Shown here in pieces: positions 41,810-43,538 of a DNA stretch of 48,952 nt. Every line of letters starts with the position of its first letter. Within the stretch, counting starts at the first letter, position 1. Source of the stretch: Candidatus Woesearchaeota archaeon (GTDB lineage: Archaea; Nanobdellota; Nanobdellia; Woesearchaeales; ARS49); the NCBI GenBank assembly GCA_002687275.1, contig NYZT01000029.1, positions 1 through 48,952 on the forward strand. Reading direction: 5' to 3'. Made by a program: the position numbers and the translations under genes. The notes under the pieces are model-generated. The model saw only the letters and a list, made by a program, of their open reading frames with translations, searched no databases and was not told where the DNA came from.

Positions 41810-42772
41810 CTATACCTCAAGAATGCGTCTGGCATATCGTGCGTCTATCCTTCGTGATTTTCCACGATGGTCTTCCTGTTCGAATTCGAAGTTTTCCAGT
41901 AGTTCGTCAACGGCTGAGTTGATGCCTCTTGCGCCCTCCCCTGCCTCCATGGCGTACGCGATGATGTAGTTTCGTGCTCCGTTGGTAAAGGTTATGCCTA
42001 TGTCTAGCTCGTAGCTAAAGTATTCTATCATGCTATTCAGTTTTCCTTTTCTCAGGTCGAGGATGGATCGTAGCTGGCGTTCGTCTAAGGGGTTGGTGTG
42101 CACCATCCTTCCAAATCGGGCGAGGAATTCTGGCTTGAAGCCGTATTCTAGGAGGTCTTGTCGGGTGGCGTGAGCTAAGAGGTTTTCTGGAACGTCTTTT
42201 GGTTGTGTGAATCCAACGGGGGAACTGTACCGCTCGCGTACTATTTCTTCTAGGTCAACAAACGCGCCGGTAGCTACGCAGAGCATGTCGTGGGTTTTTA
42301 TATCGTAGATTTCTGTTCCTTCTGCGAACGCGATCACCTCATCTTGGAGGTCTTCCTCCATGTCTCGCTCGCCGCGCAGCCCTAGCTTGTCTATCTCGTC
42401 TATGTGAACGACCATGAATCGACCGTCGTCAGGATCGATGTCCTCAAAGCTGTCCATGAAGTTTGGGCCGGTGTGGCCTGAGCTGCTCTTGCCGGTCGCG
42501 GTCACTCGCCTGTAGGGAAGATTGCAATACTCGCAGAGCGTCTGCATCATGAGCGTTTTGCCAGACCCTGGAGGACCATACATTAGCGCGTTTGTTTTTG
42601 GCACGTCTGCGCCTCGTGCGCGCCTTGACTGCCGTGAGAAGAGCACGCATAACGATTTCATGGCTTCGTCCTGTCCTACGACGTGCTCCTTGAGCTTGGA
42701 GTAGAGAAATTTTGGTCGGAAGCCAGTTATTCTCTTTTTTTTCCTTACTTTCTTCTTGGCCTTTCTTGGCAT
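41810..42772 (-). CDS. ClpX/HslU-like AAA+ ATPase without zinc domain
   Basis: 320 residues. Lys/Arg-rich N-terminus (PRKAKKKVRKKKR), then AAA+ core: VVGQDEAMKSL, Walker A GPPGSGKT (66-73), Walker B HIDEIDK (123-129), sensor/arginine region with EFLARFGRMVHTN, C-terminal GARGINSAVDELL. This order matches ClpX, but the N-terminal zinc domain and the canonical GYVG pore loop and IGF loop are absent, and no ClpP gene is in the window. ClpX is rare in archaea, so it may be an unfoldase working alone or with another partner. TATA box (aagatataag, 42791-42800) gives ATG 42772. Confidence 0.85.
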   Translation of the reverse strand: MPRKAKKKVRKKKRITGFRPKFLYSKLKEHVVGQDEAMKSLCVLFSRQSRRARGADVPKTNALMYGPPGSGKTLMMQTLCEYCNLPYRRVTATGKSSSGHTGPNFMDSFEDIDPDDGRFMVVHIDEIDKLGLRGERDMEEDLQDEVIAFAEGTEIYDIKTHDMLCVATGAFVDLEEIVRERYSSPVGFTQPKDVPENLLAHATRQDLLEYGFKPEFLARFGRMVHTNPLDERQLRSILDLRKGKLNSMIEYFSYELDIGITFTNGARNYIIAYAMEAGEGARGINSAVDELLENFEFEQEDHRGKSRRIDARYARRILEV

Positions 42773-42845
42773 GAGGGGAATGTGTGCGCCTAAGATATAA
42801 GCATTCCGCATCATTTTTAAACTACCGCTGCCATTATGCGTATAT

Positions 42846-42930
42846 GCCGCGGTGGCACAGTCTGGTTACTGCGTGAGATTGCTAATCTCATTTCCTTCGG
42901 GATTCCCCGGTTCAAATCCGGGCCGCGGCG
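42846..42930 (+). tRNA. tRNA-Ser (anticodon GCU)
   Basis: 85 nt with a long variable arm. Acceptor GCCGCGG pairs with CCGCGGC; anticodon stem TGAGA/TCTCA with loop TTGCTAA, giving GCU; T arm CCCGG-TTCAAAT-CCGGG; discriminator G, as required for serine. No encoded CCA. TATA box (tttttaaact, 42814-42823) 27 bp upstream. The next base after the discriminator begins the TTG of the following gene. Confidence 0.95.
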
Positions 42931-43290
42931 TTGAAAACAGTATTGGTGGTAGGACATTGCACGAGGGACGGTCTGCTATTAGAAAATATGGCGCGTCAGG
43001 CGGGTGCACGTACTGTGGACTTACAAACGTGGGGTGAGGCACAGACATACATCGAGCGGGGGAAACCTGCGGATTTGTACCTAGTAAATGCTTTGCTGAC
43101 TGCCAACGGTGAGCATGGAGTAGAACTCATTGGGGATGTGCGACAATTGCGGAGGGAAGCAAAGTGTATGCTTGTTTCAGAATATGAAGATGACCAAGAA
43201 ATCGCAGAAACACAGGGGGCCATCCCTGGTTTTGGCAAGGACGAGTCGCGAGTAACTATCCAGGAAAAGATCCGAGCGGCCCTTCAGTAA
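42931..43290 (+). CDS. pseudo-receiver domain protein fused transcriptionally to tRNA-Ser
   Basis: 119 residues with the beta/alpha order of a CheY-like receiver: KTVLVVGHCTRDGLLLENMA, then PADLYLVNALLTANGEHGVE and a late PGFGKDES. The usual phosphoacceptor Asp is Asn (VNALL) and the acidic pocket residues are missing, so it should not be phosphorylated. The TTG at 42931 is the first base after the tRNA and includes the first beta strand; an ATG at 42988 would cut that strand off. No TATA lies 25-27 bp before either start, so the mRNA likely comes from 3' processing of the tRNA transcript. Confidence 0.72.
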   Translation: MKTVLVVGHCTRDGLLLENMARQAGARTVDLQTWGEAQTYIERGKPADLYLVNALLTANGEHGVELIGDVRQLRREAKCMLVSEYEDDQEIAETQGAIPGFGKDESRVTIQEKIRAALQ

Positions 43291-43322
43291 CACTTTTATA
43301 CCGCGATCTTTCTTGTCTTGTA

Positions 43323-43538
43323 ATGAGCGTAGGATTGAACCGACCTGGAGATCTGAGAGATGAGGTGAACAAGCTGGACGAGGCTGTGCGTGTCGCAGAC
43401 ACGCCCGGACCTACAGAGGGTCAAAAGGTGAAGAGTCTGGCAAAGCAAATGCTCTTCTGGCTCGTTATCGCCGTCGTTGCTCTAGGCGCGATGTACTATT
43501 TTGCCAAGCCGTTTATCGCAGATCTAGGACTCTTGTAA
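43323..43538 (+). CDS. small single-pass membrane protein, 71 aa
   Basis: A polar N-terminal half (NRPGDLRDEVNKLDEAVRVA) and a C-terminal transmembrane helix (MLFWLVIAVVALGAMYYFA) with a tail facing out. Not recognised; could be a tail-anchored regulator. TATA box (cttttatacc, 43293-43302) is 25 bp before the ATG. Its 3' end overlaps the convergent zinc-ribbon protein gene by 15 nt. Confidence 0.65.
   Translation: MSVGLNRPGDLRDEVNKLDEAVRVADTPGPTEGQKVKSLAKQMLFWLVIAVVALGAMYYFAKPFIADLGLL

Follow-up and report, generated by a model that had tools for sequence, protein, structure and literature searches.

A protein gene begins on the very nucleotide that follows a tRNA-Ser gene in the stretch of Woesearchaeota DNA analysed here (48,952 nucleotides, hereafter the window; it belongs to a 1.09-Mb, 55-contig assembly, in which the analysis was carried out on the stretches around tRNAs). 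The promoter of the tRNA and cleavage by RNase Z probably stand in for an mRNA promoter at this junction, i.e. the tRNA would punctuate a joint transcript ("tRNA punctuation"). With less assurance, we lean towards a broader reading of the comparative data, according to which protein genes of no common function throughout the archaeal family would draw on a tRNA gene for both promoter and processing, RNase Z would give rise to leaderless mRNAs whose first codon is set by a +1 pyrimidine rule, and genes would switch between this layout and an ordinary leaderless promoter. The features of the locus are as follows.

42812..42820, + strand: promoter of tRNA-Ser, TATA box CATTTTTAA (first base 34 nt upstream of the tRNA; score 10.6 with the TATA matrix)
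42846..42930, + strand: tRNA-Ser(GCU) gene, discriminator G at 42930, CCA not encoded (Rfam RF00005; ARAGORN)
42930..42931, + strand: predicted RNase Z cut site between the discriminator G and the U of UUG (from the sequence and the specificity of RNase Z)
42931..43290, + strand: receiver-like (pseudo-receiver) ORF, TTG start, 119 codons (intact frame; 65% identity to the sister protein)
42988..42990, + strand: internal in-frame ATG, disfavoured as start (TATA score -5.6; no near Shine-Dalgarno-like sequence; coding-type substitutions upstream; beta strand 1 upstream)
43293..43300, + strand: TATA box of the next gene (from the sequence; conserved in the sister species)

The limits of the tRNA gene are those of the Rfam model (54.4 bits); ARAGORN gives 42845-42931, i.e. 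one base more at either end, and the Rfam limits fit a 7-bp acceptor stem (GCCGCGG/CCGCGGC) followed by the discriminator G42930. The ORF lies on the same strand at a spacing of 0 nt, the +1 T after the tRNA being the first letter of its TTG, so the direct abutment described in the initial annotation is borne out by both Rfam and the ORF list. Since there is an in-frame stop within the tRNA sequence, 5' of the TTG at 42931, an ORF start further upstream is impossible. A TATA matrix trained on the tRNA promoters of eight relatives found no usable box for the pseudo-receiver gene (scores of -3.6 for the TTG and -5.6 for the ATG at 42988), and the tRNA-Ser box is the sole strong promoter upstream of it; the earlier observation that the tRNA has a good TATA box and neither start codon has one therefore stands. 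The block AAGCATTCCGCATCATTTTTAAACTACC at the tRNA-Ser promoter is identical in the sister species. The next gene codes for a 71-aa membrane protein (43323-43538), and its TATA box lies 30 nt before the ATG, which is the usual leaderless promoter layout here. Divergent from tRNA-Ser is the gene of an AAA ATPase (window 41810-42814; sister L006:6850-7833), which is strongly different between the sisters, the flanking genes being conserved. An overlap between the tRNA-Ser TATA box and the first ATG listed for this gene (42814) makes the ATG near 42772 a likelier start.

RNase Z is known to cut 3' of the discriminator base of tRNAs. We infer from the anatomy of the locus that the pseudo-receiver gene would be transcribed from the tRNA-Ser promoter as a single tRNA-mRNA precursor, that the RNase Z cut would make the mature tRNA 3' end and the mRNA 5' end at once, and that the released mRNA would start with UUG and be translated leaderless. 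The RNase Z gene is intact in the window genome and in its sister (TIGR02651, 338 bits vs. a cut-off of 293). A precedent for the RNase Z step is the crRNA that is released between tRNA-like elements in Haloferax (PMC4946936). Another close parallel is found in the tRNA-sRNA precursors of Nanoarchaeum, where the downstream RNA is zero-spaced, as here, and its 5' end was proposed to come from RNase Z (PMC3491384); the downstream product is a guide RNA in that system, whereas here it is a protein-coding message. Leaderless initiation at UUG is the weakest step of the proposed mechanism. Leaderless UUG mRNAs, as well as those with a leader of 1-4 nt, gave no activity in a Haloferax reporter (PMC4574771), which is a real objection and the main one, even though it leaves those cases unaffected in which the tRNA is followed by T and then ATG (T|ATG, see below). 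The promoter-made leaderless mRNAs of Sulfolobus avoid UUG at 0 nt, probably via RNA polymerase signals (PMC7531240). Since RNase Z products would begin with a pyrimidine, this rule would be reversed here: UUG would be the only usual codon at 0 nt, and AUG would be used from +1 (U|AUG).

The locus can be compared with that of a sister species of the same genus, a Candidatus Woesearchaeota MAG (contig JASMHM010000004.1). The two share the gene order RNase HII, tRNA-Met, AAA ATPase, tRNA-Ser, pseudo-receiver gene and 71-aa membrane protein, and the pseudo-receiver proteins are 65% identical over 119 residues in a gap-free alignment from the start. The sister keeps the tRNA, but a spacer of 33 nt (TACTTTTTTAAACTCCACTCATACGTTATAGAT) separates it from the gene, which starts with an ATG that aligns with the TTG of the window. 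This spacer holds a TATA box (9.8 at -31, where the window copy scores -3.6) and a T6 run, which could also terminate the tRNA transcript. The window sequence equals that of the sister minus 33 nt between the +1 T and the TG of the start codon (two species compared, no outgroup). Zero spacing is thus a species difference that arose by one small indel rather than a conserved design of the pseudo-receiver gene; as a conserved feature of this gene it is ruled out by the spacer of the sister, whose promoter and ATG likewise speak against conserved selection for zero spacing at this locus. The refuting case named in the initial annotation, a relative in which the gene is far from any tRNA and starts at another codon, was found in one half only: the sister uses a different start codon, yet has the gene close behind tRNA-Ser.

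The name pseudo-receiver, which came with the initial annotation, suits the protein as a description but does not stand for a proven family. The match to Response_reg (PF00072) is below threshold (E=0.093, 13.3 bits vs. a cut-off of 30.2), and the residues needed for phosphorylation are replaced in both species: the phospho-acceptor Asp by Asn (LVN) and the acidic pair by GH (VVGH). A structure model of low confidence (pLDDT 60, pTM 0.53) suggests a receiver-like beta/alpha fold; response regulators are among its best structural matches, the best PDB match being the response regulator 2qxy (E=2.4e-4, TM 0.60). The first beta strand of this low-confidence model (residues 4-8) lies upstream of ATG42988.

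Where the protein starts also bears on the possibility that the joint transcript is translated uncut, the tRNA forming a structured 5' leader, or that translation begins at an internal codon. Archaea offer an example of such a layout, as TK0306 of Thermococcus kodakarensis has a tRNA-Lys within its 159-nt 5'-UTR that is apparently co-transcribed with this protein gene (PMC4247193), and the ORF in the window contains in-frame TTG (42943), GTG (42946) and ATG (42988) codons. The two loci differ in that tRNA-Ser runs straight into the start codon in the window, and the message would be leaderless once cut. We consider translation of the uncut transcript, or from an internal start, unlikely. Firstly, at a distance of 0-2 nt the folded acceptor stem would block the upstream contact of the ribosome. 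Secondly, excision of the tRNA is needed for its function anyway. Thirdly, ATG42988 is not preceded by a Shine-Dalgarno-like sequence. Finally, the changes between the window and the sister in the first 19 codons, from the TTG to ATG42988, number 5, 3 and 14 at codon positions 1, 2 and 3, respectively; these substitutions are of the coding type, and the protein start therefore lies upstream of 42988. Minimum-energy folding of the joined tRNA-mRNA did not recover the cloverleaf.

Support for processing by RNase Z, which the initial annotation had proposed, comes from the family rather than from conservation at the window locus, which is absent. In eight genomes from this GTDB family, the surroundings of 214 tRNAs were searched for the dominant same-strand ORF starts 0-100 nt after a tRNA (n=82), and expected numbers were taken from a flat distribution. 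Starts at 0-2 nt amount to 14 out of 82, vs. 2.4 expected (p=1.4e-7), and nine of these 14 are at +1; when only ATG starts are considered, 8 out of 67 are at +1 (p=3.6e-7). An ATG at +1 opens a frame of at least 80 codons in 8/9 cases, as compared to 28/85 for ATGs at +3 to +30 (p=0.0017). The corresponding enrichment of open frames for TTG at +0 is weak on its own (3/8 vs. 12/95, p=0.09), so that the strong spacing statistic rests on T|ATG and not on TTG at +0. A pyrimidine (T or C) opens the trailer of 210 of the 214 tRNAs (98%). Because of this +1 pyrimidine a start at 0 nt must be TTG, and ATG can occur only from +1 (T|ATG). The claim that zero spacing is hard to explain as chance thus has two sides: it holds for the family-wide excess at 0-2 nt, but the single locus in the window could be the outcome of one 33-nt indel.

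Of the 13 genes at 0-2 nt that are 80 codons or longer, none scores above 4 with the TATA matrix, as compared to 67% of the genes at 30-60 nt. This bears on another explanation, namely that a shortened mRNA is made from an internal or unrecognised promoter and that the abutment is functionally meaningless. There is a weak TATA-like match, CGTTGAAAA (score 6.3), at the tRNA-Ser/ORF junction, and it could start an RNA within the gene, some 30 nt after the TTG and still 5' of ATG42988. Such an RNA would, however, remove beta strand 1, the genes at 0-2 nt lack boxes at the proper place as a class, and the family-wide excess at 0-2 nt would be left unexplained; we regard an internal promoter as very unlikely. 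Genes at 0-2 nt would rather use the tRNA as promoter and processing signal. Shine-Dalgarno initiation was rejected for this class, as a 4-base match is present in just 2 out of 13, and some genes 13-24 nt after a tRNA do have a good Shine-Dalgarno sequence. One example is found behind tRNA-His (G000:C21:45666-45736 in the window assembly and G001:C9:159471-159541 in the sister), where a gene lies 13 nt downstream with GAGGTG as Shine-Dalgarno sequence in the gap in both species. The product (MPKGMKDYYPE...) we take to be a histidyl-tRNA synthetase. This is a second, leadered way to place a gene behind a tRNA.

A pattern scan of 26 family genomes gave 22 cases of pyrimidine plus ATG directly 3' of a tRNA, about 15 of which open long frames, and 28 plausible cases of tRNA|TTG, about seven of which are real genes. 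Bare counts of TTG at +0 were discarded as a family-wide signal, since most of the 28 are not gene starts and the enrichment is weak as given above; a TTG at +0 was accepted as a start only when backed by homology or by a long frame. The genes concerned are diverse. TruD, a tRNA pseudouridine synthase, has its gene directly behind a tRNA in two genera, with TTG at 0 nt in one and T|ATG in the other (L087/G007, L115/G009), an ACT-domain protein gene has TTG at 0 nt, and genes of an alpha/beta hydrolase and a methyltransferase have T|ATG. Behind tRNA-Leu(UAG) (G000:C36:1369-1452 and G001:C11:71823-71906) there is a TTG at 0 nt in both species, and the genes that follow look different, an ACT-domain protein in one species and a 139-aa protein in the other; because of this difference the site appears to be reused. 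The diversity of the genes also argues against the regulatory version of the earlier proposal, in which the level of the pseudo-receiver would be coupled to tRNA processing. Such a coupling would follow if processing limited the supply of mRNA, and the anatomy is compatible with it. Yet nothing in the data points to a limiting or regulated processing step, a shared promoter without regulation gives the same anatomy, and functionally unrelated genes at 0-2 nt are more in keeping with a device for gene expression at large than with a sensor, so that we judge regulation of this kind to be highly improbable.

The layout is present outside the family as well, but it is rarer there. A real ORF at pyrimidine|ATG was found in 10 of the 26 family genomes; of the 115 genomes from the remainder of the order, at most 5 have one (p ~1e-5), the latter count being an upper bound estimated from the readable loci; for any hit in genomes of the phylum that are at least 90% complete, the numbers are 7/8 vs. 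11/92. Base composition was considered as the cause of the family enrichment and dismissed, as the GC content is 0.47 at the family loci and 0.40 at those of the other members of the order.

An informative case is dph2N, a small gene (about 84 aa) that codes for the N-terminal portion of a Dph2-like protein of diphthamide synthesis and occurs in 19 of the 26 family genomes (L310-L328 in the family genomes; G001:C12:44686-44937; G000:C26:48878); its stand-alone form suggests a split dph2. Both species of the window's genus have dph2N with TTG at 0 nt from tRNA-Asn, i.e. here the arrangement is kept between species, which is not so for the pseudo-receiver gene, and 13 of the 17 differences in the first 25 codons of this pair are at third positions. 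The gene follows tRNA-Ile by 1 nt (T|ATG) in another genus and tRNA-Asn by 8 nt in a third one. The homologous ATG start in most of the relatives that have no tRNA close by has a TATA box 31-33 nt upstream; in one further copy the box precedes, by 31 nt, another in-frame ATG located upstream. All scored copies that lie no more than 8 nt behind a tRNA lack a TATA box, as does one distant copy that lies 76 nt after a tRNA-like hit. Thus dph2N occurs in two layouts, with a leaderless promoter of its own or directly abutting a tRNA, and at least two different tRNAs are involved in the latter. This alternation is hard to attribute to chance, and it establishes the TTG as a true start in the dph2N case.

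At the window locus one may still ask whether the spacer and promoter were lost recently by a chance deletion that left the gene silent or decaying. There is a single sister genome for comparison, and it has the spacer, the TATA box and the ATG. In addition, the gene is confined to its genus when the 26 family genomes are compared: a search of 96 relatives found no homologue of the protein except in the sister, scans of genome contigs gave nothing convincing past the sister, and two bacterial matches of about 30 residues each were dropped. On the other hand, the frame is intact and of the same length in the two species, with dN about 0.26, dS about 1.2-1.3 and dN/dS about 0.2 over the pair, and the same genome contains the tRNA-Asn/dph2N junction, where TTG at 0 nt has been kept in both species. 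We therefore see a silent or decaying gene as quite unlikely.

Messages in animal mitochondria have little or no leader. The punctuation by tRNAs in these organelles is similar to the arrangement proposed here inasmuch as the mRNA ends are defined when RNase P and RNase Z cut out the tRNAs (PMC8437803). The two differ in that one polycistronic transcript spans the mitochondrial genome, whereas here there are single tRNA genes with their own TATA promoter and one abutting gene, in an archaeon, with UUG or U|AUG as start. The archaeal leaderless mRNAs that are made from promoters resemble the proposed messages in having the start codon at or near the RNA 5' end, as would those family genes whose start is preceded by a TATA box at 31-33 nt. 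Their 5' end is a triphosphate and they avoid UUG at 0 nt (PMC7531240), as opposed to the 5'-monophosphate and pyrimidine proposed here. We found no report in the open-access literature of a recurrent archaeal layout with start codons abutting tRNAs.

If our reading is correct, tRNA punctuation as known in mitochondria would extend to the free genomes of a prokaryotic lineage, and one enzyme would make both tRNA 3' ends and mRNA 5' ends. The messages would be natural, leaderless UUG mRNAs with a 5'-monophosphate and would provide a test of terminal UUG initiation by archaeal ribosomes. Matched pairs, i.e. the same gene with a promoter and abutting a tRNA, offer material on promoter loss in small genomes. 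For gene finders the practical point is that true starts may touch tRNA genes.

Two other tRNA loci of these genomes deserve mention. Around tRNA-Ala (G000:C43:10219-10296 and G001:C8:179177-179254) contig C43 of the window assembly, which is not the contig of the window, is identical to the sister for at least 45 bases on each side and diverges in the following ORF; this contig is possibly contaminated or mis-joined. A second tRNA (G000:C43:38230-38325 and G001:C16:7675-7770) has no normal anticodon according to ARAGORN ('???', 'at') in either species, and since its Rfam score is good despite this call, it probably holds an intron.
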